From: an uncultured Flavobacteriales bacterium
Lineage (GTDB): Bacteria; Bacteroidota; Bacteroidia; Flavobacteriales; Schleiferiaceae
Reading direction: 5' to 3'
Assembly (NCBI GenBank): GCA_950073045.1
Contig: CATMQD010000006.1
Location: 1-40,735, forward strand
DNA length: 40,735 nt
A program made the position numbers and the translations under genes. Within the stretch, counting starts at the first letter, position 1. Every line of letters starts with the position of its first letter. This document shows positions 4,976 through 40,180 of this stretch, piece after piece. Below the pieces are notes generated by a model. The model was not told the origin of the DNA and did no database searches. It saw only the letters and a list, made by a program, of their open reading frames with translations.

Positions 4976-5617
4976 TTACCAGCCTTGCTCTTGGTATTTT
5001 GGATTGGCAGAGAACTCGGCTGCACCAATATCGAGGTCCCCAGATTTGGGAATTCGAGCAAGACCCCAATTGCACACCCGACTGTTATCATCTTCATAAG
5101 CGCGCCAAAAACCTTCATATTGATGATCACGAAAATCATCGGAAGAACGGTTCACTTCATTGGAGCTTAATTCACCATCTCTTTTTAAAAGGTAAGTACA
5201 CCAATAGCTTCCGCTGAAAATACCTACGTGCTTTTGCTCGGGGTTTTCACTGAAGAGATAGCGACCTTTAATTTTTCCTGCCGACAGCCATTCGGGATTG
5301 GGACTTTTTTTATCGAGCTCCCGCGGTAAATCTTCATCCTCAGAAATGCCTTCAATGATTAGTAGGCCTTTAAAGTCACACCGATTGCTTTTAACGATTG
5401 AATGCCCTTTAAGGTGGTAGAGGTTTTTTTGATCGACATCTTTCCAAAGGCTATCAAACTGCATGTAGATACGTTGCTTATCCTCACCTATAAAACCTAA
5501 GAACTCGGAACTAGGTATCAGAAGCTCACTTAGGTCTTGATCCAAAATAGCAGCCATGCGGCTTTCGGAGGGACTGCAAATCAGAAACGAAATCAATAAG
5601 AGTAATAGATTGGGCAT
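4976..5617 (-). CDS. Hypothetical secreted protein
   Basis: A 213-residue protein I do not recognise. The N-terminus MPNLLLLLISFLICSPSESRM looks like a signal peptide; a Cys at position 14 sits inside the hydrophobic stretch, so lipoprotein processing is possible but not convincing. The mature part is acidic with no membrane segments. It contains a YWCTYLLKRDGE segment and a C-terminal region rich in aromatic and acidic residues (YEGFWRAYEDDNSRVCNWG). Three Cys remain after the signal (in RCDF, WCTY, RVCNW). It is 40 bp downstream of the 5658-6917 gene on the same strand, with a hairpin between, so co-transcription is uncertain. Confidence 0.7.
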   Translation of the reverse strand: MPNLLLLLISFLICSPSESRMAAILDQDLSELLIPSSEFLGFIGEDKQRIYMQFDSLWKDVDQKNLYHLKGHSIVKSNRCDFKGLLIIEGISEDEDLPRELDKKSPNPEWLSAGKIKGRYLFSENPEQKHVGIFSGSYWCTYLLKRDGELSSNEVNRSSDDFRDHQYEGFWRAYEDDNSRVCNWGLARIPKSGDLDIGAAEFSANPKYQEQGW

Positions 5618-5650
5618 GACTTGCTCTTTAAAGTTTAAATTACAGAAAGG

Positions 5651-5683
5651 GCCCCGACTAATAAACCAAGGTACTATCGGGGC
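5651..5683 (-). terminator. Possible hairpin spanning the end of the 5658-6917 gene
   Basis: Arms GCCCCGA (5651-5657) and TCGGGGC (5677-5683) flank a 19-base loop that contains the TAG stop. On the minus strand the stem is followed by CCTTTCTG, a poor U-tract, so termination is weakly supported. Confidence 0.35.
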
Positions 5684-6917
5684 TGTAAACTATGTCGTTT
5701 AAGCGAATGGAAAGAGCTGGTTTATCATCCAATTGATGGTTTTTTTGATAAGCATCGAGTCCTTTGCGGATGGCAATCAGGCAAACGAAAAAGCGCTCAT
5801 AGGATATTTGCTCCCAACCTTTAAAATTAAAGTAAATACCATGTGAACATGGCTTAGCATTGGCCGCGGCATTTTCTAACTTCTTTAAGTTGAGAGGGGA
5901 CCCATTATAATATACCTGATCGTTTGCGGCGGGCATAATTAGGTGTTCCTTTTCAAAAATTGATGGAGGAAAAGGAGGCGCTGGAGGTGGAGGAATAAAG
6001 GGGTCGAAGGTAGCACTACCGTAATAGTGAATCGCTAGGTCGTAGTGTTCATATGCGGCACTATTTTGAAAGCTAAAGGCCAATCTAGTATTTCTAAGCT
6101 CAGGTTTGGGAGTACTGGCATAGGCCTGCATTAAACTCGCAACTTTCGCATTTCGATCGAGAACAAATCGCAAGGGGTAAGGGCCTGGGATATAATGCTG
6201 CCTGAAATAGTGATTATTGTATAGCGTGCTTTGATACTCACCTATAGAAAGAAGCTTTTTACCTCGGGTAGCGTAAAATTGAATTGAAGAAGGAAGCGAG
6301 TCTTTTTCCAATATAAAATACTCTTCATTAAAGGAGCGCTCTCCCAACATAGGAACCAGCAAATCGCTTTCCACGAGCTGTATATCAAATCGTTCGTAGG
6401 GATTTTTTTGAGCGATTTTTCGTTCCAGTTTTGCTATATCTACCAAGTTCCACTGACTAAAGATAAAGCTTAGACCACCTATAATTCCAGCACTTAAAAG
6501 CAAGTAGCGCAGCGCTTTTACGCGATAAACTAAAAGCAGGTTTTTCCAAAGGTTTAAGAATAGCACGCTCAGGATTAGAGGAAAAAGCCAGGGGTAATTT
6601 TGGTAAAAGTTTAGTTCCATGTCACTGCCATGAAAGGCAAAGTCAAGGCTAAAGCCAAACATAAAACTAAGCTTCACAAACCAGTGTAAAAAGGACCACT
6701 GGAGCATTCTTTGGTCATTTAAAATTCGATTGCGAGCAAAGAATGTTTTTTCTCCAAAACGGAAAGCTCTATAAAACCAAATCTCCAAAACAATGGCCAA
6801 ACCACTAATTAAACTCAGGGCCGCAAAAAACAGCTTATAGAAAAGTCTTTCATCAGCGCTAAGCGGATACACCTGATAATAGTAATTGATAGCCATAAAG
6901 CGCAGGAGGTCCAGCAT
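5658..6917 (-). CDS. Polytopic membrane protein with proline-rich linker and possible ExbD-like C-terminal domain
   Basis: A 419-residue protein I do not recognise as a whole. Four hydrophobic segments are visible at about residues 25-48, 72-92, 108-130 and 134-155. A soluble region of about 150 residues follows, then a proline-rich run (IPPPPAPPFPP, about 313-323), then a last domain of about 95 residues. That domain (LIMPAANDQVYYNGSPLNLK, then GIYFNFKG, SYERFFVCLIAIRKGLDAY) resembles the periplasmic fold of ExbD/TolR: a strand, an 'ING' turn, a helix, a strand, then 'Y-x-x-hydrophobic-x-x-hydrophobic-x-x-G'. This is a visual resemblance only. A second in-frame ATG (MAINYYY) at 6896 is an alternative start. 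It lies downstream of a strong terminator, so it probably has its own promoter. Confidence 0.75.
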   Translation of the reverse strand: MLDLLRFMAINYYYQVYPLSADERLFYKLFFAALSLISGLAIVLEIWFYRAFRFGEKTFFARNRILNDQRMLQWSFLHWFVKLSFMFGFSLDFAFHGSDMELNFYQNYPWLFPLILSVLFLNLWKNLLLVYRVKALRYLLLSAGIIGGLSFIFSQWNLVDIAKLERKIAQKNPYERFDIQLVESDLLVPMLGERSFNEEYFILEKDSLPSSIQFYATRGKKLLSIGEYQSTLYNNHYFRQHYIPGPYPLRFVLDRNAKVASLMQAYASTPKPELRNTRLAFSFQNSAAYEHYDLAIHYYGSATFDPFIPPPPAPPFPPSIFEKEHLIMPAANDQVYYNGSPLNLKKLENAAANAKPCSHGIYFNFKGWEQISYERFFVCLIAIRKGLDAYQKNHQLDDKPALSIRLNDIVYSPDSTLVY

Positions 6918-27757: not shown

Positions 27758-30700
27758 ATGAAGAAGTTATTACTAAGTCTTCTAGGCTTGGCAGCGACTG
27801 GTGTTTCCTATGGACAATGCCCTCTTACAGGTCCTGCTACTTTGCCTTACATTCAAAATTTTAACTCGGTCTCCGGCTACACACAAAATGATACTATTTT
27901 TATGTGTGAGCCATCTGCGCGCTGGGAGTTTCAATCTCCTGGTACAAATGCCGAATTCTATATGGGCCGACCGAGCTCAACTGGTGGTCCACAATCCGAT
28001 TTTCAAGGCGTATCTCTAGCTATGTCTTCGGCAGCAGATGCTGATACTGCGAATATTATTTTAACCATAGACCTTTCGAATATCACGGCAAGTGCCCCAG
28101 AGGATATTTGGTTAAACTTTTATTATGCCGATTATGCCGATGAAGTAGATGCTGCGGATCAAATTTCCGTGCGTGGATCTAACTCTGATACTTGGGTTGA
28201 CCTCATTAACTGGAGTAGTGGAGCCTCAAATGATTGGCAAATTGGGCGCTATAAATTAGACTCAATTTTTACCGCTAATGGTCAGAGTTTTAGCGCTACC
28301 ACCCAAGTTAAGTTTACGCAAAACGATAATGCTACTGTAACTGGAAATGATGGCTTTGGATTGGATCAAGTAAGCATTGAGTCTAATAATACCGCCATGC
28401 CAACTAATGTTTCCATTAGCAATGTAACAGCTACCACTGCAGATGTTAGCTGGACAGGAAGCGCACCTCATACTCAAATTGCGGTAGGAGCATTAGGTTT
28501 TTACTGGCCATCTGCTGCCACCCAAGATTTCAGTGGGGTATCTACTGGTTCTTTAACTGGTCTTAGTCCCGCAACCGAGTATCAGGTTTGGTTGCGCGAT
28601 AGCACTGCATCAGGTGATGTGAGCTTATGGAGAGGACCTTTCTCTTTTACTACTTCTTGTATTCCATATACTGCTCCGTTTTTCACAGACTTTGAATCTA
28701 CCAATGATGGTGATGTGGAGAATTGTTGGCTACAATATAACAGTTACAGCACCCTTGCTTATGCTAGGGTAGAAGCGCTTTCAAGCACCAATGCCACTCA
28801 ACCTTTAAGTGGTTCTAATGTATTGGAAATGTATGCCTACACTAGTTTTTCAGCTGGTGATACATTAGTGGCCATAAGCCCCGAGTTTGGTGATATGACT
28901 GCAGGGGATAAACAGGTTCGTTTTCATTTGGCCTCTAACGATGATGCCAACAGCCTCTATATCGCTACCATGGATAATAACACACTTAATGCATCCATTA
29001 CGATTCTTGATACAATCGACATTATAGCATCGAATACCTGGCAAGAAGTTATTTATCCATTAACAACCGCCAATGGTTATAATGGTACCGATACCTATAT
29101 TGCATTAATTCACGATCTATCAGGTGGAACCTTCGACGACATCTACATTGATGATTTTAACTATGAAGTTATTCCTGCTTGTCCAAAAGTAACTGGTGTT
29201 AGCTTTAGTAACATTGGTTTCGATAATGCGGATATGTCTTACATCCTTAATGGAGACTCTCTTCAATTAGAATGGGGTCCAGCAGGTTATACCCAAGGTA
29301 CAGGCTGTGTTGTTTCTGTTGCGAATAATGGAACGATTAATATCAACAATACCCTAGACCCCGGTTGTGCAATTGGTTTAGGCGCCTCCACTACTTATGA
29401 TGTTTATGTGAGAAATAACTGTACATCTAGTGGTGATGGCTTTTCGATTTGGAGTGGTCCATTTAGCTTTACAACTGCTTGTGCTCCTACTATGGCTCCT
29501 TTTACTGAGAATTTTGATTCTTGGGACCCAGGTACTGGAAGCACAACAGCAAATAATGATAGTATCAGTTCTTGCTGGAGCAGAGATCCAATCGCTGGCT
29601 CAGGCTCCTACCTTTGGTTAGTAGATAATAATGGAACCGGTTCAAGTAATACTGGACCTAGCACTGATAATTCGGGAAGCGGAAATTACTTATACACCGA
29701 GGCAAGTAGCGGATCAACTGGTGATATAGCATACCTATATAGCCCTTTGATTGATGTAAGCGGACTGAGCTTACCATACGTACAGTTTTATTTACATGGT
29801 ACCGGTGATGATTTAGACCGATTAGATCTTGAGTACTTAGATAATGGCACTTGGACTCCCCTTATTACTGTAATTGGCGAACAACAAGCGGCAATAGCAG
29901 ACCCATTTATGTTAATGGCAGATACCCTTGACAATCTAAGTGGAACTATTACTCAATTACGTTTTAAGGCTACCCGCGGAACTAGTTTCGAAGGAGATTG
30001 GGCAATAGATGAATTAAGCGTTATCGAAACCCCAAGCTGTACACCCAGCACCGCCTTTATGGTTGATAGCGCAACCGGTAACACTATTTATACCAGCTGG
30101 ACCGCAGGCGCGGGTACTAGTTTTATCATTAATGCAGATACTACCGGATTTACTCCAGGAATGGGAAGATATGGTGATACTGTAAGCTTAACTAATGGTG
30201 CAATTACAGGATTAATGCCATCTACTGACTATGACATTTACTTAAAAGATGTTTGTGGCGGAGGTAATGGAAGTAGCATGTGGGTTGGACCAATTAATGG
30301 CCGTACCGCTTGTCCTGCAGTTTACTCTAGTCCTGTACTATTCGATTTAGAAGACCTAAGTATTGGTAATCGCGTAGACTTTGTTAACTGTTGGTCTACT
30401 GATAAAACCAGCAATCCACGCTGGGAGGTAGAAACCGCATCAGGGAGCAATTTAAACTCTACCAATACCGGTCCCTTCTTCGACAAAACCTTAAATGGAG
30501 TAGCTGGTGGTAACTATTGGTTCTTAGAAACTTCTGGTGGCAGCTTAGGAAATGAGGCAAATTTAAACTCTCCACCTATTGATTTGTCCGGAATGACGGA
30601 GCCTAGCCTTTACTTCTGGTTCCATATGTATGGCGCCGATATGGGTAACCTACATATTGATATTGAGAACCAAGGCACTTGGTATAATGATTATTTCCTT

Positions 30701-33700
30701 ATTCAAGGTCAGCAGGATACTGCTGGTAATGATGATTGGAATCAATTGGAGCTTAACTTGGCTTCATTTGTAAACGATACAATTCGTATTCGCTTCCGTG
30801 GGGAAAGAGGAAACGGGTTTACCTCGGATATGGCTATTGACGATATCGAGATTGCCGAAGCTAGCGATTGTAACTTACCAGTTAACCTTCAAGCTACTAA
30901 CTTAACCGCTACCTCTACCGATATTACTTGGTCTTCCTATGGCGATGAATTTAATCTAGTATGGGGTCCCTCAGGGTTTTTACAAGGAACCAACACTGCT
31001 GGAGGTACTGTTATTAACAACACCACTGCACCTGTTTCTATTACTGGTTTAAACCCTAATACAGCCTACGATATCTACGTACAAGATACATGTGATGAAA
31101 GCATTTGGACTGGTCCATTAACCATTCAAACGCCATGTCTTTCTGCATTAGCTGGTGGTACTTATACCATTGGTACTAGTCCTAGCGATGACTTTGCCAC
31201 TTTTGATAGCGTTGCTACCTTATTAAATGGTTGCGGTATTAGTGGTCCAGTTATCTTTAATATCCAGCCAGGTACTTATGTAGATAATTTACACCTTCAG
31301 TTTGTACCAGGTGTAACCAGCACCAACACCATTACCTTTAACGGTACTAATGGTCAGGATAGCTTAATTTACAACGGACAATCTTATCAGAGTACCGTAC
31401 TTATCGAAGGAACCAAGTATGTTACTCTAAACGATATGACCATTGTGAATAATGGTACTTCAGAGTCCTTCGGCATCATGCTAAAGGATAATTCTGATTC
31501 TGTAACTATCAGTAATAACACCATTTTAATGGATACTACTGGTTCGGGAATCGACATCACCGCTATCCTCACGGCATCGGTTTACGATAATGACCTTAGC
31601 GAAGGTTCAGAAGTAGATTACTTGACCATTGTTGGCAATGAGATTATTGGTGCTGTTTATGGTATCAACCTCGAGGGTGATGGTACTGGCGACTTTAGTA
31701 TTGGTCATCGCATCTTAAATAACCATTTGTCAAGTCAGGTTACCTACGGTATCTACTTAGACGAATTACAGGATATTGAGATCATTGGCAATACCATCGA
31801 TAATGTGCGCGGAACAACCGACGGTATCTATGCTTTCGACTTAAACGATTTCCGAGTAGAGAATAATGCCATCTATGTAAGTGATTACGGTCTTTACATT
31901 ACTGATGGTAACGATGGTTTCGCGCCAGCAAGCCGCTCCACCCTCATCAATAATATGGTAAGCAGTACCAGTGATTATGGCATCTACTTAAACGACTTTG
32001 AGTTAGTTGAAGTTTACCATAATACGGCCTATGGATCTCCCGGTATGGCTATTAATGATCAGGATAGTGTGTGGGTAATCAATAACGTTTTCGTTTCCGA
32101 TAACGATTTTGCTTTCGAGTCATTCGATAACTTTAATGGTTCCGAAACAGTTGATTACAATGCCTACGAGTCCGGAAATAGCAATGCTTTTGATATTGGC
32201 ACTTCATCCTATGCGGATCTTGCTGCTTGGGTAGCGGGCGACCCTGCTCACAATGCAAACAGTGTAGAAGGTGACCCGGTATTTATTAGCAAGCCAGATG
32301 ATCTTCACCTTATTGGCACTTTAGCTAATGATGCTGGTGACAACAGCCTTGGAATTACTACCGATATTGATGGCGATACCCGTCCACAAGCACCTTCTAC
32401 TATTGTAGATATGGGAGCCGACGAATACACGCCTTTAGCCGATGATGCGGAAATGGTGGAAATTATTGCTGAGTTTGGTTGTGGCGATAGCGCTACTGCG
32501 GTTAGCGTGGTATTCCGAAACCTTGGTCAAAATACCATCACTAGCTTACCAATAACTGTGGATTTAACCGGTGGACTAACTACTACTTTAAATGCAACTT
32601 ATTCTGGTAGCTTAGCCTCATTGGATATGGATACTATGTTAGTAGGTACATATAATACTTACTCTGGGGTTCAAGGTATAATGATCGACGCTTCTGTAGC
32701 CTTAAGTGGTGATCAAGATTTAAGCAACGATAGCTTAAGTGTCGGTCCAATTGACTACTTACCTTACGAGCCTATTGGAATTGATAGTAGCTACTGTATC
32801 AATGACACAAGCGCTATGTTAACCGCAAATCCACTCACTGGTGTAAGCTACGAATGGTTTGCTAGTAACAACGCTAATGATACCATTCCTGTGGCTTCTG
32901 GCGACACCTTAGCAGTTGCGGCAAGTAGTGCATTAAGTACTTACTACCTTGCCTACGCATCTGCTGTAGACAGCCTCGGAACTTCCTTTGGGGGTGGTAA
33001 TGGTCAAAATGGTAATGTATTCGACATTATGCCAATTAGTAATATAGAGATTACTGGTTTTGATGTGAACCTTGATGCCACTACCGCGGAGAATGTAACG
33101 GTATTTGTTCGAGCAGGAACTGGTGTAGGAAATGAGGCTTCTTTAACCGGATGGTCTTTATTAGACAGTATGACGGTAACTGGAAACGGCGCCGGTAATG
33201 CTACACATATTCCTTTTACCACTCCATATTTAGCGCTTGCAGGTCAGACCTATAGTTTTATGGTCTTAACCACTACCGCTCAAATGGATTATACCAATGG
33301 TACCGCCGTGGGTAATGTATTGGCTCAAAACACCGACTTAGTTATTTACGAAGGTGCCGGTATTTCTTGGCCATTATCCTCTGTGTTTACACCTCGTTTC
33401 TGGAACGGACGTATTTATTATAACACTGATGCCTGTTCAGATATCCGCGTGCCCGTTAACTTAACTCTTGGCACAGATACGGCAACTGCTAGCTTTAGCA
33501 CCACGGGAACACAGCCTACCTTTAACTTCGATGCCAGTGCATCTGTTAATGCTGATGTTTACACTTGGGACTTTGGCGATGGTAATAATGGTACTGGTGT
33601 AACTACTAGTCATACTTATGCCAACAATGGTGTTTATACCGTTACCCTTACGGTAGATGATACCACCGGTTGTTCTAGCATGGCTACTGATACTACCTCA

Positions 33701-33988
33701 ATTGAAGTTACCATAGGAATCGAGGAAAACCCATTAGAGCAGTCTCTAGCGGTGTATCCTAACCCTGCTACAGATCGTGTATTAGTGGACTTTGACCTTG
33801 TGAACAGTTCTAATGCAACTATCCGTTTAATGGACGCTCAAGGGCGTGTATTAGTGGAAGTAGCAGAGAAAGCACAAGGCTCTAAATTCCACCGTACAAT
33901 TGATGTTAGTCAATTAGCTAATGGAGTTTATATGATCGAAATTGAATCTGGAGACCTGATTGCTCAGCGTCGCCTTAGCGTTCAATAG
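27758..33988 (+). CDS. Giant modular T9SS surface protein (jelly-roll/FN3 repeats, beta-helix, PKD, sorting domain)
   Basis: A 2076-residue cell-surface or secreted protein. Signal peptide MKKLLLSLLGLAATGVSYGQ. Four tandem modules of about 275 residues follow (about 20-301, 301-574, 574-851, 851-1127). Each joins a MAM/jelly-roll-like beta domain (PYIQNF or PFTENFDSW start, WAIDELSV or MAIDDIEI end) to a fibronectin type III domain (LSPATEYQVWLRD, PNTAYDIYVQD), with a Cys at each boundary (FTTSC, FTTAC, RTAC, QTPC). About 1129-1551 is a right-handed beta-helix (ISNNTI, IIGNTI, VENNAIYV, INNMVSST, ending DMGADEY). A CARDB-like domain, an Ig-like segment (YEWFAS) and a further beta domain (1742-1894) come next. 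A PKD domain (YTWDFGDGN) is at about 1910-1980 and a type A sorting domain (LAVYPNPATDRV) is last. Adhesin or polymer-binding role is inferred; no catalytic motif was recognised. Confidence 0.93.
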   Translation: MKKLLLSLLGLAATGVSYGQCPLTGPATLPYIQNFNSVSGYTQNDTIFMCEPSARWEFQSPGTNAEFYMGRPSSTGGPQSDFQGVSLAMSSAADADTANIILTIDLSNITASAPEDIWLNFYYADYADEVDAADQISVRGSNSDTWVDLINWSSGASNDWQIGRYKLDSIFTANGQSFSATTQVKFTQNDNATVTGNDGFGLDQVSIESNNTAMPTNVSISNVTATTADVSWTGSAPHTQIAVGALGFYWPSAATQDFSGVSTGSLTGLSPATEYQVWLRDSTASGDVSLWRGPFSFTTSCIPYTAPFFTDFESTNDGDVENCWLQYNSYSTLAYARVEALSSTNATQPLSGSNVLEMYAYTSFSAGDTLVAISPEFGDMTAGDKQVRFHLASNDDANSLYIATMDNNTLNASITILDTIDIIASNTWQEVIYPLTTANGYNGTDTYIALIHDLSGGTFDDIYIDDFNYEVIPACPKVTGVSFSNIGFDNADMSYILNGDSLQLEWGPAGYTQGTGCVVSVANNGTININNTLDPGCAIGLGASTTYDVYVRNNCTSSGDGFSIWSGPFSFTTACAPTMAPFTENFDSWDPGTGSTTANNDSISSCWSRDPIAGSGSYLWLVDNNGTGSSNTGPSTDNSGSGNYLYTEASSGSTGDIAYLYSPLIDVSGLSLPYVQFYLHGTGDDLDRLDLEYLDNGTWTPLITVIGEQQAAIADPFMLMADTLDNLSGTITQLRFKATRGTSFEGDWAIDELSVIETPSCTPSTAFMVDSATGNTIYTSWTAGAGTSFIINADTTGFTPGMGRYGDTVSLTNGAITGLMPSTDYDIYLKDVCGGGNGSSMWVGPINGRTACPAVYSSPVLFDLEDLSIGNRVDFVNCWSTDKTSNPRWEVETASGSNLNSTNTGPFFDKTLNGVAGGNYWFLETSGGSLGNEANLNSPPIDLSGMTEPSLYFWFHMYGADMGNLHIDIENQGTWYNDYFLIQGQQDTAGNDDWNQLELNLASFVNDTIRIRFRGERGNGFTSDMAIDDIEIAEASDCNLPVNLQATNLTATSTDITWSSYGDEFNLVWGPSGFLQGTNTAGGTVINNTTAPVSITGLNPNTAYDIYVQDTCDESIWTGPLTIQTPCLSALAGGTYTIGTSPSDDFATFDSVATLLNGCGISGPVIFNIQPGTYVDNLHLQFVPGVTSTNTITFNGTNGQDSLIYNGQSYQSTVLIEGTKYVTLNDMTIVNNGTSESFGIMLKDNSDSVTISNNTILMDTTGSGIDITAILTASVYDNDLSEGSEVDYLTIVGNEIIGAVYGINLEGDGTGDFSIGHRILNNHLSSQVTYGIYLDELQDIEIIGNTIDNVRGTTDGIYAFDLNDFRVENNAIYVSDYGLYITDGNDGFAPASRSTLINNMVSSTSDYGIYLNDFELVEVYHNTAYGSPGMAINDQDSVWVINNVFVSDNDFAFESFDNFNGSETVDYNAYESGNSNAFDIGTSSYADLAAWVAGDPAHNANSVEGDPVFISKPDDLHLIGTLANDAGDNSLGITTDIDGDTRPQAPSTIVDMGADEYTPLADDAEMVEIIAEFGCGDSATAVSVVFRNLGQNTITSLPITVDLTGGLTTTLNATYSGSLASLDMDTMLVGTYNTYSGVQGIMIDASVALSGDQDLSNDSLSVGPIDYLPYEPIGIDSSYCINDTSAMLTANPLTGVSYEWFASNNANDTIPVASGDTLAVAASSALSTYYLAYASAVDSLGTSFGGGNGQNGNVFDIMPISNIEITGFDVNLDATTAENVTVFVRAGTGVGNEASLTGWSLLDSMTVTGNGAGNATHIPFTTPYLALAGQTYSFMVLTTTAQMDYTNGTAVGNVLAQNTDLVIYEGAGISWPLSSVFTPRFWNGRIYYNTDACSDIRVPVNLTLGTDTATASFSTTGTQPTFNFDASASVNADVYTWDFGDGNNGTGVTTSHTYANNGVYTVTLTVDDTTGCSSMATDTTSIEVTIGIEENPLEQSLAVYPNPATDRVLVDFDLVNSSNATIRLMDAQGRVLVEVAEKAQGSKFHRTIDVSQLANGVYMIEIESGDLIAQRRLSVQ

Positions 33989-35038: not shown

Positions 35039-35197
35039 CTAAAGCACTTTCGGTTGTTTCGCACAATAGAGGTAGTAGCCATCTTGGAAATAAAGTTTCC
35101 CAGTTTCGGGATCGATAGTAATGCTGCTTCTAATATCAATATCATTGAGCTCCCCCAGCTTAGCAGGAGTAGCGAGGTTTTCACCGGTGGCAATATC
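35039..35197. repeat. 159-bp exact repeat, unit 1 (3' end of propeller copy 1)
   Basis: Bases 35039-35197 are identical to 36336-36494 at a constant offset of 1297. Identity stops abruptly on both sides: one end is exactly the stop codon, the other is inside codons for VITDIATG. Read directly from the sequence. Confidence 0.95.
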
Positions 35198-36250
35198 CGT
35201 TATGACTAATTGAGCAGCAGAGGTATAGTATAGTTTCCCTTGATAGTAGCTGTAGTCACCTTCGCCATAGCCAGATGGATAACCATCAACTACCCGGTTT
35301 ATAAAACCCTTTTCTAGGTTTAGATAGGCTATTTTCGGTCGATCGGCATTTACAATTAGTTGATTATCGTAAAAGCCGATATAATTGATTTTAGCAGCAA
35401 CTGGACCAGAGCCTAAAGCCGTATTAAGGTTCCGCAACCAGAGGGTTTCACCTGTTTCTAAATCCAAACAATAAACAGAGCTTACATAGCGCCCATAGAC
35501 TTTACCATTGTACACTTTAGGCGAAAATGGAATGTCGCCTCCTGGGAAATCCCGATTTCTCCAGAGGAGGCTGTCAGCGGTGATATTATAAGCAAACACC
35601 TCCATGCGATCTATAGGATGGGTGGATCGATTTTGCCAAAGCACAATTTCATCACCATTTGGCAGGCTTCCAAAACCAATGCCGTCAAAAAAGGGACTCA
35701 TTTTTCCATTCGCGGTAAAACTGTAAATGGTCTCCCAATTATTCTGATCAATTGGAGTGCGCAATACAGAAGCTGTTTTTTCACCAGAATACTGACAAGT
35801 GTAAACGAATCCATTATTACCATAGATAAATGCGCTTTGATCACTGTTTGTTGTAGAGGCCCATTGTATTTGTCTGGTCTCTAGGTTTATACAGTCATGA
35901 GAACTCATGGTTTGTAGAACGAGATACTCTCCTTCTTGGTAGTATTTATCAGTCCAATACCAAGTAGAACCATCAATATAGTCCGACCAAATATCTACCA
36001 CTATGCCTGTGGCTGTATCCACAAATAGAATAGGAGATTGTTGATTGAATAAATAATCCTCGGTGCTAACCACTACCAGACTGTCATAAAGAACGGGGTT
36101 CATTCCAGTAACAAATAGTCCATTTGTAATTGGAGTTTTCCAAAGGACTTCAAATTGATCAGCTTTATCGGCAATAGTTGAGGAGGGCCTGGTTTCCTTA
36201 CAGGAACTCAATAAGGTAATGAGACCTAGAAGGTGGATCATTAAAAACAT
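35039..36250 (-). CDS. PQQ-like beta-propeller lipoprotein, copy 1
   Basis: A 403-residue lipoprotein when started at ATG 36250: MFLMIHLLGLITLLSSC carries a lipobox (LLSSC, Cys17). The frame stays open upstream to 36490 but that part reads the neighbouring paralog's 3' end out of frame, so it is not coding here. Propeller blades show PQQ-type repeats: VLWKTPITNG, CINLETRQIQWASTT, NITADSLLWRNRDF, VYCLDLETGETLWLRNL, VITDIATGENLATPAKLG, LYFQDGYYLYCAKQP. No PQQ-dehydrogenase catalytic residues are seen, so it is likely a binding or scaffold propeller. It is paralogous to the adjacent upstream gene (402 residues). The last 159 bp are identical between the copies, whereas other parts differ. The function is unknown. 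Confidence 0.87.
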   Translation of the reverse strand: MFLMIHLLGLITLLSSCKETRPSSTIADKADQFEVLWKTPITNGLFVTGMNPVLYDSLVVVSTEDYLFNQQSPILFVDTATGIVVDIWSDYIDGSTWYWTDKYYQEGEYLVLQTMSSHDCINLETRQIQWASTTNSDQSAFIYGNNGFVYTCQYSGEKTASVLRTPIDQNNWETIYSFTANGKMSPFFDGIGFGSLPNGDEIVLWQNRSTHPIDRMEVFAYNITADSLLWRNRDFPGGDIPFSPKVYNGKVYGRYVSSVYCLDLETGETLWLRNLNTALGSGPVAAKINYIGFYDNQLIVNADRPKIAYLNLEKGFINRVVDGYPSGYGEGDYSYYQGKLYYTSAAQLVITDIATGENLATPAKLGELNDIDIRSSITIDPETGKLYFQDGYYLYCAKQPKVL

Positions 36251-36335
36251 CTCAAACCTCTTATCTTCTCTGAAGTATGAATACATCGCCATATATCCCA
36301 CATATTTAGAATCCTGAAGCAAAGCAGCAACTGCC

Positions 36336-36494
36336 CTAAAGCACTTTCGGTTGTTTCGCACAATAGAGGTAGTAGCCATCTTGGAAATAAAGTTTCCCAG
36401 TTTCGGGATCGATAGTAATGCTGCTTCTAATATCAATATCATTGAGCTCCCCCAGCTTAGCAGGAGTAGCGAGGTTTTCACCGGTGGCAATATC
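36336..36494. repeat. 159-bp exact repeat, unit 2 (3' end of propeller copy 2)
   Basis: Second copy of the exact repeat at 35039-35197, same orientation. The high identity here contrasts with the many synonymous differences elsewhere in the two genes. Confidence 0.95.
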
Positions 36495-37544
36495 TGTTAT
36501 GACTAATTGTGCAGCGGCCGAAAAATAGAGTTTACCCTGATAATAGCTATAGTCACCTTCCCCATGACCATTTGGGTAACCATCCACTGCTTTAAAGATA
36601 GAACCATCCTTTGGTGACAAGTAAAGCACTTTGGAACCGTAGCCATGCACAATGAGTTGATCATTGTAAAAGCCGATATAATTTGCCGCCCAAGGAAGGT
36701 AGTTATGATCAAAGACAGAGTTATATCCTCTAGTCCAAAGTGTTTCACCAGTTTCAAGGTCCAAACAGTATAGTCCATCATTTAGCGGGCCGTAAACCTT
36801 GCCATTATAAACTTTCGGTGGAAAGGGGACCTCGAAGTCAAGAAAGTCCCGATTCCGCCAGAGCAAGGAATCCGCGGTAATATTAAAAGCAAAGACTTCC
36901 ATACGATCTATGGGGGTCCTAGTTCGATTTTGCCAAAGCACAATTTCATCGCCATTAGGCAGGCTTCCAAAGCCAATGCCATCAAAAAAGGGACTCATTT
37001 TCCCATTCGCCGTAAAACTGTAAATGGTCTCCCAATTATTCTGATCGATGGGGCTGCGTAAAACAGATGCTGTTTTTTCACCAGAATACTGACAAGTGTA
37101 AACAAATCCATTATTACCGTAGATAAAGGCACTCTGCCTAACATTAGTGGTAGAAGCCCATTGTCTTTGCCTAGTTGCCAAGTTTATGCAGTCTGTAGAA
37201 TGCATGGTTTGCAAAACCAAGTATTCACCTTTGTTGTAATAGCTGCTTGAGGTATAAACAGCCACACCATCAATATAATCCGACCAAGTATCTATTACCT
37301 CTCCATTTGTGTTATCGAAGAATATTAACGCGACCTTATCGTCATAGATTTCATATTCGGTGTTCATTATTACCACACTGTCAAATAATATTGGATTCAA
37401 ACCAAGCACGGCCGGACCATTGGTTATTGGAGTTTTCCAAAGGATTTGAAAAACATCAACATTTTTACTAGGGTCATTTTGGTTACTCCTTGTTTTACAG
37501 GAGCTTATAGCTAGGTTAAAACTTAGGAAGAGGTAAGTGAACAT
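36336..37544 (-). CDS. PQQ-like beta-propeller lipoprotein, copy 2
   Basis: A 402-residue lipoprotein from ATG 37544 (MFTYLFLSFNLAISSC, lipobox AISSC, Cys16). An in-frame ATG at 37610 would overlap the lipase gene and place a poor leader before the signal; the chosen start gives almost the same length as copy 1. Blades match copy 1: ILWKTPITNG, CINLATRQRQWASTT, NITADSLLWRNRDF, LYCLDLETGETLWTRGY, then the same last 52 residues. The middle stretch around SAFIYGNNGFVYTCQYSGEK is also nearly identical in protein but carries synonymous changes. The gene starts 13 bp after the lipase stop and ends 85 bp before copy 1, consistent with one operon. Confidence 0.88.
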   Translation of the reverse strand: MFTYLFLSFNLAISSCKTRSNQNDPSKNVDVFQILWKTPITNGPAVLGLNPILFDSVVIMNTEYEIYDDKVALIFFDNTNGEVIDTWSDYIDGVAVYTSSSYYNKGEYLVLQTMHSTDCINLATRQRQWASTTNVRQSAFIYGNNGFVYTCQYSGEKTASVLRSPIDQNNWETIYSFTANGKMSPFFDGIGFGSLPNGDEIVLWQNRTRTPIDRMEVFAFNITADSLLWRNRDFLDFEVPFPPKVYNGKVYGPLNDGLYCLDLETGETLWTRGYNSVFDHNYLPWAANYIGFYNDQLIVHGYGSKVLYLSPKDGSIFKAVDGYPNGHGEGDYSYYQGKLYFSAAAQLVITDIATGENLATPAKLGELNDIDIRSSITIDPETGKLYFQDGYYLYCAKQPKVL

Positions 37545-37557
37545 CTTGTTTGAGCTA

Positions 37558-39120
37558 CTATTTTTCTTCCAGATAAAACTCATCACCATAAATTCCTTTA
37601 AAAAGCTCAACTAACCGATCCCTTGTTTCAAAACAATTCCGCTCTTGCATATGATTGGTATTCTCCATCCTTGCTCTAGGATCAAAGGCCACCCCAGGCA
37701 TCCCTGTTTGCGAAGAAACCGGTACCACCCCATCACTTTCTTCTTCTATAATTTGGTGTCGCATGCGTGGGCTAATGTAGCAGTTGGAATAGCCATTGGG
37801 ATTACAATCGCCAGGGCTAGCCACTATGGTATCGAGAATCATTAAGCCATTCACAGTCATTTGTGCACATTGACAGTGATAACCATCAATCCAAGAAGTG
37901 TCGCGACGAGCACCGATAAAGCGCTTCCAATTCATATTAGAATGGCCAAGCCATTGGTAGGCATTCCGATATTGGATAGCCTTTTGTTCATATTGGTGGG
38001 CGTAGTAAGATAAGATACCGGTACCTGGTATATGCCAAAAGCTGATAAATGCTAAATGCCGTAATGATCTTGCTTTGCTGGCCTTTTCAGATTCTTTAGC
38101 AACATAATCGTTGTACTTATCATTTATCATTTGAGGAAAGCCCCCATCGTCATTAAAGCCAAAGGGATTAGTACGAAGAATAGGCGCGCCAAGGTTTACG
38201 GAGTCTGTGGTATAAGTCATGGTGTGTAAAACCCGCCACAATACCGGCTCCTCTTCCACACCATAAAAGTTTACTCCTTTAGTATAAACTGTATCCTGCA
38301 AAGTGAAGGGTGCCAGACTATCATTTAAGAAAGCAGCGCCTTGAGCATAATCAACACCAATGGGCTTTCTTATGGAGTTTACTAGGTAAGGAAGAGCCGT
38401 TTGCTGAAAGGCATTACAGGCCGACCGCGCTATTGATCCCACATTGGAAGCAGAAATAGCAGAACGCCACCACATGGAACCATCCAAGAAATTATTAATC
38501 TCCGCTGCACCTAATGCTGTGCAACCATCCATTAGCCAGGGCATTACCATTCCAGTATCGGAGGTGCTATTAATAATCGGGGCTCCTTTATGAGGCGAAC
38601 CAAAGGTGGCGATATGCCGGAATTGTTCGGGATATAAGACAGAATCTTTGTGGTTTTTAAAGCGAATGGCCCGGGCCACAATCCCACCCTGACTGTGTGC
38701 GATGGCGAAATTATGTTTTACCGCTAGGGTATCTGTACGAGGATTATTAATGCGCCAAAACTCCATATCTTGATTGATACGTCCCGCTGCATCCGGCAAA
38801 GGATCATTCTTTTCGTAGGCGGTATACACCACCGTTTTGCCATATACCTTCCTTACGGGATAGCCCGCTACTTGGGTGGAGGTTTGATCTTGAGTAACAA
38901 GCTGCACACGGCCCCAAGAGTTGAAGTTACCAGCAATACCATGAATCCAAAAAACCACTTTAGGATCTAGGCTATCGGACATCCCTGTCAAAGTGTGATT
39001 AGAAACAACATCCGGGTTTTCACTAGCCAAGCGCATGGAGTCGGTGGCGATATAAACTACCTGAGCATTAACGAAAGAGGCCGTGCTAAGTAGAATTAGG
39101 AGAAAAATTAGTTTTTTCAT
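37558..39120 (-). CDS. Secreted alpha/beta-hydrolase, lipase/esterase-like
   Basis: A 520-residue exported hydrolase. Signal peptide MKKLIFLLILLSTASFVNAQ. VVFWIHGIAGN (about 56-65) is the oxyanion-hole HG motif and AIAHSQGGIVARAI carries the nucleophile Ser143 in the AHSQG elbow. A late acid residue in ESDGVVPVSS (about 462) and a His in NTNHMQE (about 490) complete a plausible Ser-Asp-His triad in lipase order. A long insert between the elbow and the acid residue (about 160-450) contains several Cys (DGYHCQCAQ, GDCNPNGYSNCY). No sorting domain is present, so it likely stays periplasmic or is retained by partners. It is 4 bp after the T9SS gene and 13 bp before propeller copy 2. Confidence 0.87.
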   Translation of the reverse strand: MKKLIFLLILLSTASFVNAQVVYIATDSMRLASENPDVVSNHTLTGMSDSLDPKVVFWIHGIAGNFNSWGRVQLVTQDQTSTQVAGYPVRKVYGKTVVYTAYEKNDPLPDAAGRINQDMEFWRINNPRTDTLAVKHNFAIAHSQGGIVARAIRFKNHKDSVLYPEQFRHIATFGSPHKGAPIINSTSDTGMVMPWLMDGCTALGAAEINNFLDGSMWWRSAISASNVGSIARSACNAFQQTALPYLVNSIRKPIGVDYAQGAAFLNDSLAPFTLQDTVYTKGVNFYGVEEEPVLWRVLHTMTYTTDSVNLGAPILRTNPFGFNDDGGFPQMINDKYNDYVAKESEKASKARSLRHLAFISFWHIPGTGILSYYAHQYEQKAIQYRNAYQWLGHSNMNWKRFIGARRDTSWIDGYHCQCAQMTVNGLMILDTIVASPGDCNPNGYSNCYISPRMRHQIIEEESDGVVPVSSQTGMPGVAFDPRARMENTNHMQERNCFETRDRLVELFKGIYGDEFYLEEK

Positions 39121-39124
39121 CAGT

Positions 39125-40180
39125 TTAGATTTTAGTTAAGGTTTCAGAGTAAAGACCTTGCTGAGTTTGTACCAGAATAATCAATGGGCCAGCAGGGTAG
39201 GTAGAAGCATCAAGAACCAAAAGGTCGCGATTAACCGAAGGGTTAAGATGAGTGTGGACAATATTGCCCATATAGTCTCTTACTTGAACTTGAGAAACCA
39301 CCGCTTCAGGGATGCCTTTTAAAACTACCTCATACTCTCCTTCTACAGGATTTGGAAAGATTTCAATATGTGCAGCGTCGGTGTATTTTTCCACCTTATT
39401 TCCAAAGTCTTCAATTACATGATTATGGAAAGTGGTAATGCTTACTTGGGTGATGGGATTAGGCAGGTCAAGGCGAGTTTCGCGAACCTCCTCTAATTTG
39501 GGAACATAGCCATAAGGTGCATAAAGCATGTACTCATGTCGAGTTTCATAGCGCCGGCCTTCATAAGTATAGGTCGCCACAATACTGCGATCATTAGGGT
39601 CAATAGTCATTTCATGACCGGCGCCTGACAATTTGAAAGATTGATCCGGGAAGATTTCAAAATGCGCCCCATTATCGATGGCTTCTTGAATAAAATCATC
39701 ATGCTTAGAAGGAAAGAACATCATTATTGGTCGCCAACCATTAGTGTTGTTTTCGTTAATCCTGCCTTGCATGGTGGCTAATTCCGCAGAATTATGATCG
39801 ATCTCCGATACTACCGCGCCTAGGGAATCGTAGGTGATGCTTTTTGTAGGAGTGATAAGCGACAAATGAGCGGGGCTCATCCATTCCTCGAGCTTAGTTA
39901 TCTCAAGGTTCTCAATTTGGAAGTAAGGCTCTAGATTATTATTAACACCCAAGCATTGAATGCTATGATGTTTTAAGGGTTTCAAATAATCCCGCTCTCG
40001 GAGATCGAGGTCCTCGATACTTAATCCAATAGGAATTTCGGCATAAGAGCTTTTAAAAGATTCGTAGCGATAGCGCGCTACTGTTTGCTCATTAATAGGA
40101 TTGTTTTGACTGGACTGCCCAAGTGCACTTAGACTTATTAGCAAAAGAGCGCCGATTAAGGTGGTTTTAATCATTTTCAT
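39125..40180 (-). CDS. T9SS type A sorting-domain protein, first gene of the lipase cluster
   Basis: A 351-residue secreted protein. Signal peptide MKMIKTTLIGALLLISLSALGQ. The body is not recognised; it contains EVETR-type antiparallel strand runs (EMTIDPNDRSIVATYTYEGR, YETRHEYMLYAPYGYVPKLE, ITQVSITTFHNHVIEDFGN). The last about 80 residues are a type A sorting domain (IEIFPNPVEGEYEV, VQVRDYMGNIVHTH, YPAGPLIILVQT). It is followed after 4 bp by the lipase gene, indicating tight coupling; whether it binds the substrate or the lipase is unknown. Confidence 0.87.
   Translation of the reverse strand: MKMIKTTLIGALLLISLSALGQSSQNNPINEQTVARYRYESFKSSYAEIPIGLSIEDLDLRERDYLKPLKHHSIQCLGVNNNLEPYFQIENLEITKLEEWMSPAHLSLITPTKSITYDSLGAVVSEIDHNSAELATMQGRINENNTNGWRPIMMFFPSKHDDFIQEAIDNGAHFEIFPDQSFKLSGAGHEMTIDPNDRSIVATYTYEGRRYETRHEYMLYAPYGYVPKLEEVRETRLDLPNPITQVSITTFHNHVIEDFGNKVEKYTDAAHIEIFPNPVEGEYEVVLKGIPEAVVSQVQVRDYMGNIVHTHLNPSVNRDLLVLDASTYPAGPLIILVQTQQGLYSETLTKI

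Follow-up and report, generated by a model that had tools for sequence, protein, structure and literature searches.

Organization of the locus

The window, i.e. the whole 40,735-nucleotide stretch of DNA that was analyzed, carries two tandem BamB-like lipoprotein genes, A and B. They close a conserved unit in which the gene for a T9SS-type protein is followed by that of a secreted PGAP1-like hydrolase and then by that of a propeller lipoprotein. The features considered here are the following:

39125-40180, minus strand: first gene of the unit, encoding a 351-aa secreted protein with a weak T9SS C-terminal sorting tail, found at the same place in relatives
37558-39120, minus strand: secreted PGAP1-like serine hydrolase (520 aa; Pfam PGAP1), directly upstream of B and in the same orientation
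36336-37544, minus strand: gene B, BamB-like beta-propeller lipoprotein (402 aa)
35039-36250, minus strand: gene A, BamB-like beta-propeller lipoprotein (403 aa); the ATG at 36250 was picked as start by the signal peptide, the ORF remaining open further upstream
36888-37127, minus strand: central, putatively older and partly homogenized block of gene B (alignment codons 141-220), delimited by synonymous divergence
35591-35830, minus strand: the corresponding central block of gene A (alignment codons 141-220), with 0.36-0.49 A-B synonymous differences per site
35291-35440, minus strand: part of gene A with strong divergence (alignment codons 271-320), a short way ahead of the tract
36336-36494, minus strand: 159-bp tract, gene B copy, an exact match to 35039-35197 (2 copies genome-wide)
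35039-35197, minus strand: 159-bp tract, gene A copy (last 52 codons and stop), an exact match to 36336-36494 (2 copies genome-wide)

The hydrolase matched Pfam PGAP1 with 25.8 bits (cut-off 24.3), and the 351-aa protein scored 19.0 bits against Por_Secre_tail, below the cut-off of 27. By inspection of its sequence, the hydrolase begins with a signal-peptide-like stretch. Residues S143, D463 and H490 were invariant in all 26 rows of a hydrolase alignment from which L044 and L068 had been omitted out of the 27 relatives' loci, and from the known fold they would form the catalytic triad.

A 26-row lipoprotein profile, built from 23 of the 27 hydrolase loci together with A, B and L030, matched BamB structures (E = 1.9e-18), which places the family among PQQ-like propellers; Cys16, following the signal peptide as in bacterial lipoproteins, was invariant in 26/26 rows. 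PQQ_2 was matched by 16 of the 26 members. The family thus shares a lipoprotein signal and PQQ-like repeats with BamB and other PQQ_2 propeller lipoproteins, but differs in occurring in one to four copies beside a hydrolase, and the two window proteins remain below the PQQ_2 cut-off (24.3 and 25.5 bits against 27.6). Both also fall far below the cut-offs of the BamB equivalogs, so that they are called BamB-like rather than assigned to the outer-membrane assembly factor BamB. In small-genome relatives the lipoproteins are more distant and escaped the profile of nearer relatives, yet profile-profile alignment connected them with 96.6% probability. No usable AlphaFold model resulted for the lipoprotein (3-row alignment, pLDDT 42) or for the hydrolase (2-row alignment).

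The surroundings were compared with those of G003, a relative with a single lipoprotein copy at the locus. Nine flanking genes showed 64-94% identity, six of them above 80%; for the three-gene unit the values were 56-67%. The window also encodes, at 27758-33988, a T9SS protein of 2076 aa (MAM, PKD and fn3 domains) that G003 lacks at the corresponding, otherwise colinear position.

Divergence between genes A and B

The preliminary description of this locus had reported an identity of 159 bp reaching the stop codon, and this was confirmed: positions 35039-35197 equal 36336-36494 at an offset of 1297, the second-longest exact run at that offset being 35 bp, and no further copies of the tract were found in the 3.47-Mb assembly. 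The stop codon (TAG, minus strand) sits at the low end of the tract, and identity runs inward from it. As no similarity between the A and B copies was detectable 3' of the stop codons or 5' of the start codons, the 3' edge simply lies where homology stops, and the informative boundary is the one upstream (35197/36494). At that edge the tract is followed by one synonymous difference, four identical codons, a second synonymous difference, one identical codon and three consecutive amino-acid changes.

In a codon alignment including G003, synonymous differences between A and B amounted to 0.51-0.98 per site in codons 1-140 and 221-344, and were lower in the central codons 141-220. In the last 59 codons (345-403) they dropped to 2/40, i.e. 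0.05 per site. In these same codons, A and B differed from G003 at 0.77 and 0.76 synonymous differences per site, respectively, and the tract DNA itself is therefore unconstrained. The layout proposed in the preliminary description, with diverged 5' ends, a moderately similar middle and an identical end, holds in that the end is identical and the genes differ elsewhere. Divergence is, however, not simply greatest at the 5' end, codons 271-320 being among the most diverged, and the moderately similar middle is itself a partly homogenized block.

Among the 550 sites variable between A, B and G003, the longest run of A=B agreement was 37, and it was still 18 when only silent codons were considered; as the maximum in 20,000 shuffles was 14, chance is excluded. 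The longest run was 7 for A=G003 (reached in 321/20,000 shuffles) and 5 for B=G003 (3,544/20,000). Two-of-three agreement shifted from A=G003 to A=B at the two blocks, with site counts (A=B/A=G003/B=G003) of 37/0/0 in the tract, 49/4/17 in the central block and 22/45/27 in codons 61-140. A scan for blocks of low synonymous divergence between A and B gave a log-likelihood ratio (LLR) of 24.9, the best of 300 shuffles reaching 10.3.

By their sequences, A and B are old paralogs. In the protein tree outside the blocks, A grouped with G003 (FastTree support 0.95), and on this grouping the duplication would precede the split from G003, B having been lost there. This older date is only suggestive, because the IQ-TREE AU test gave P = 0.055 for A+B outside the blocks (0.044 in codons 221-344 and 0.24 in codons 1-140 alone) and because inside the tract, where A+B was the best tree, the alternatives were not rejected at the level of the protein (AU P = 0.34).

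Origin of the identical 3' end

Recent gene conversion, as put forward in the preliminary description, is strongly supported for the A/B pair by synonymous divergence, the outgroup, permutation tests and the independent arrays of relatives. Very probably, the 3' end of one old tandem paralog was recently overwritten by its neighbor, and a mid-gene segment earlier, through interlocus gene conversion. Over most of their length, A and B are close to saturation at synonymous sites. Homologous recombination between the neighboring copies would have written the 3' end of one over the other, the tract ending at the stop codon since alignable DNA ends there. The central block would represent a second, older conversion event that partly homogenized the genes.

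An assembly artefact, in which two differing 3' ends were collapsed to one consensus placed at both sites, appears highly improbable. The window makes up one entire contig of a draft in 348 contigs, and another copy of the family in this genome is broken at contig ends, which would suit such an error. The contig nevertheless runs through both copies with distinct flanks, a collapse cannot yield the older, partly diverged mid-gene block, and a like block of 140 identical codons occurs between copies a and d of G005, a genome assembled in one contig.

There is also only a slim chance that an intragenic exchange generated a transient third copy and that A became a chimera carrying the 3' end of B when one copy was subsequently lost. 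Unequal crossing-over events generally occur in tandem arrays, and the one to four copies present at this locus across genomes fit with them. Two events would be required, however, and the downstream flank of B would be expected to accompany the exchanged 3' end of A, where no similarity was found.

Strong constraint on the 3' ends, exerted by a conserved role of the last blade or by a signal in the RNA, would fit an identity that starts exactly at the stop codon, but its probability is close to nil: it was ruled out by the divergence of both copies from G003 and by the conservation analysis of the family, in which the tract was no better conserved than the remainder among nine other members (mean column identity 0.414 in the tract, 0.505 in the central block and 0.374 in the remainder; tract against all else, P = 0.95), and an Rfam search of the window found no RNA family. 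A fit of the A/B differences on conservation predicted 18.1 amino-acid differences in the tract, and none was observed.

Probable gene conversion in the arrays of relatives

The lipoprotein was found in 15 of 99 genomes by BLAST, the genome of the window included, and in 13 of 88 genomes of the family by profile search. Copy number at the syntenic locus is one in G003, two in the window and four in G005, a genome in a single contig, and in each case the same two genes lie upstream. Beside their own versions of these two genes, G004 carries three copies, the third being frameshifted, and G019 four. The frameshift (L032, approximately 5094-6301, G004:C5) reflects either decay or a sequencing error. 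A probable tandem pair was also seen in G010 (L050 and L016, G010:C3), its first lipoprotein copy being too diverged for the profile of nearer relatives. A further lipoprotein of the window's own genome is apparently one gene split over two contigs (L038 at the end of G000:C95 and L037 at the end of G000:C4), with no hydrolase within 3.4 kb upstream.

All 16 within-array pairs of the four arrays (A/B, G004, G005 and G019) were scanned for blocks of low divergence at synonymous codons. For six of them, none of 300 shuffles matched the observed block:

A/B: codons 352-403 (0/300 shuffles)
G005 a/d: codons 189-328 (0/300 shuffles)
G005 c/d: codons 48-147 (0/300 shuffles)
G004 b/c: codons 1-202 (0/300 shuffles)
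G019 b/c: codons 15-45 (0/300 shuffles)
G019 b/d: codons 77-212 (0/300 shuffles)

The remaining ten within-array pairs were matched in 2 to 177 of the 300 shuffles. None of the 13 between-genome pairs reached 0/300. Among these, G005 copies a, b, c and d gave 3, 8, 3 and 36 of 300 against G001a, pairs that make imperfect controls, the copies of G005 being mosaics too; G005e/G001b gave 18 and the other between-genome pairs at least 68. Switching of partners along the arrays was clustered in G019 and G005, equally few switches being obtained in 13/5000 and 21/5000 shuffles, respectively. For G004 b/c, the scan gave 0/300, whereas no signal came from the longest-run test (2963/5000 shuffles).

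The preliminary description had set conversion against an identity shared by all gene parts in related strains; when this was checked on related species, their arrays showed patchy identity instead. Conversion thus recurs in this lipoprotein family without being bound to the 3' end, the converted blocks of three relatives' arrays lying at the front, middle or back of the genes. Converted blocks would persist where the copies are similar enough for pairing and where the exchange is tolerated.

These positions rule out a 3'-end rule, and with it a homogenized end as a general property of the family. The related proposal that a variable front diversifies ligand binding was not supported either: some of the strongest divergence falls late in the gene, in codons 271-320, and the amino-acid differences between A and B follow the columns that are variable family-wide (Spearman -0.33). 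Nor is positive selection on variable loops claimed here, given this same correspondence and A-B synonymous sites near saturation.

Interlocus gene conversion and the resulting concerted evolution of bacterial paralogs have been described (PMC6053082), including between babA and babB of H. pylori (PMC3444412, PMC4552749). The likeness lies in segments that are closer to each other within a genome than to their orthologs, in local, sharp-edged tracts and in the involvement of tandem or related surface-protein genes. By contrast, the blocks of the A/B family are short, vary in place and belong to a lipoprotein of environmental Bacteroidota, and they are known here from sequence rather than as phase or antigenic variation.

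Distribution of the unit and possible role of the lipoproteins

The hydrolase was found in 25 of the 99 genomes. Of the 15 genomes that have the lipoprotein, 13 are among these, the other two being G006, where a fragment lies at a contig edge, and G013. In the streamlined genus g12 it was near universal (8/9 genomes searched). A hydrolase profile run on 395 sampled genomes of the phylum (E ≤ 1e-20, top candidates per genome scored) recovered only the window's own protein. An ORF of similar size stands before the hydrolase at 26 of its 27 loci in relatives (L042-L068), L068 being the one exception, and a lipoprotein-compatible ORF follows it in all 27, some of these ORFs being cut by the locus end. 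Of the 22 loci measured, 16 show a 4-nt overlap between the hydrolase gene and the lipoprotein gene; in the window, these genes are 13 nt apart. At L068 (G014:C2), a full-length lipoprotein gene adjoins a hydrolase truncated to 324 aa, from which the nucleophile region is missing. PADLOC found nothing among the four proteins tested. A small literature search, part of which was too broad to speak for absence, showed no description of the unit among the titles and abstract openings listed.

The most likely role of the lipoprotein, with about even confidence, is to bind the hydrolase encoded just upstream, as a beta-propeller anchored in the envelope, and to escort or restrain it. It would be made in step with the hydrolase, its probable binding partner, and its copy number would shift by tandem duplication.

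By analogy with the Tli lipoproteins that act against T6SS lipases, A and B might instead be immunity-like partners shielding the cell from the hydrolase, which we consider unlikely. The position of the lipoprotein gene directly after the hydrolase gene with the frequent 4-nt overlap, the pairing of a single hydrolase with two to four lipoprotein copies and the own-genome copy that lacks a hydrolase nearby are all compatible with immunity. The published Tle3/Tli3 system (PMC9860674) shows that hydrolase-lipoprotein pairs of immunity logic exist; as a likeness to the unit here, it joins an alpha/beta hydrolase, with an HSQG nucleophile and a structure close to that of palmitoyl thioesterases, to an outer-membrane lipoprotein, there the immunity protein. 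Tli3 is described as a new fold in that paper, which nowhere uses the word propeller, whereas the window lipoproteins are BamB-like; export differs as well, T6SS effectors of the Tle type having no signal peptide and the window hydrolase starting with a signal-peptide-like stretch of its own. No delivery module was identified, and the near-universal presence of the hydrolase in the streamlined genus is unlike the patchy distribution of toxins.

A broader reading, in which a T9SS-type protein, a signal-peptide-bearing PGAP1-like lipase and tandem BamB-like lipoproteins make up a family-restricted envelope system, is doubtful at best. The lipoproteins would there neutralize or license the lipase, and conversion among the two to four tandem copies would keep the fold-bearing segments alike and let the contact loops diverge.

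The findings point to a conserved hydrolase-propeller lipoprotein unit, a modestly interesting operon whose third gene is the one to multiply. Gene conversion as a process is already well known, and the A/B pair is a real and well-supported instance of it. It offers a clean, controlled case, from an environmental bacterium, of patchy conversion affecting tandem paralogs of old age, and the same process is seen in the independent arrays of its relatives.
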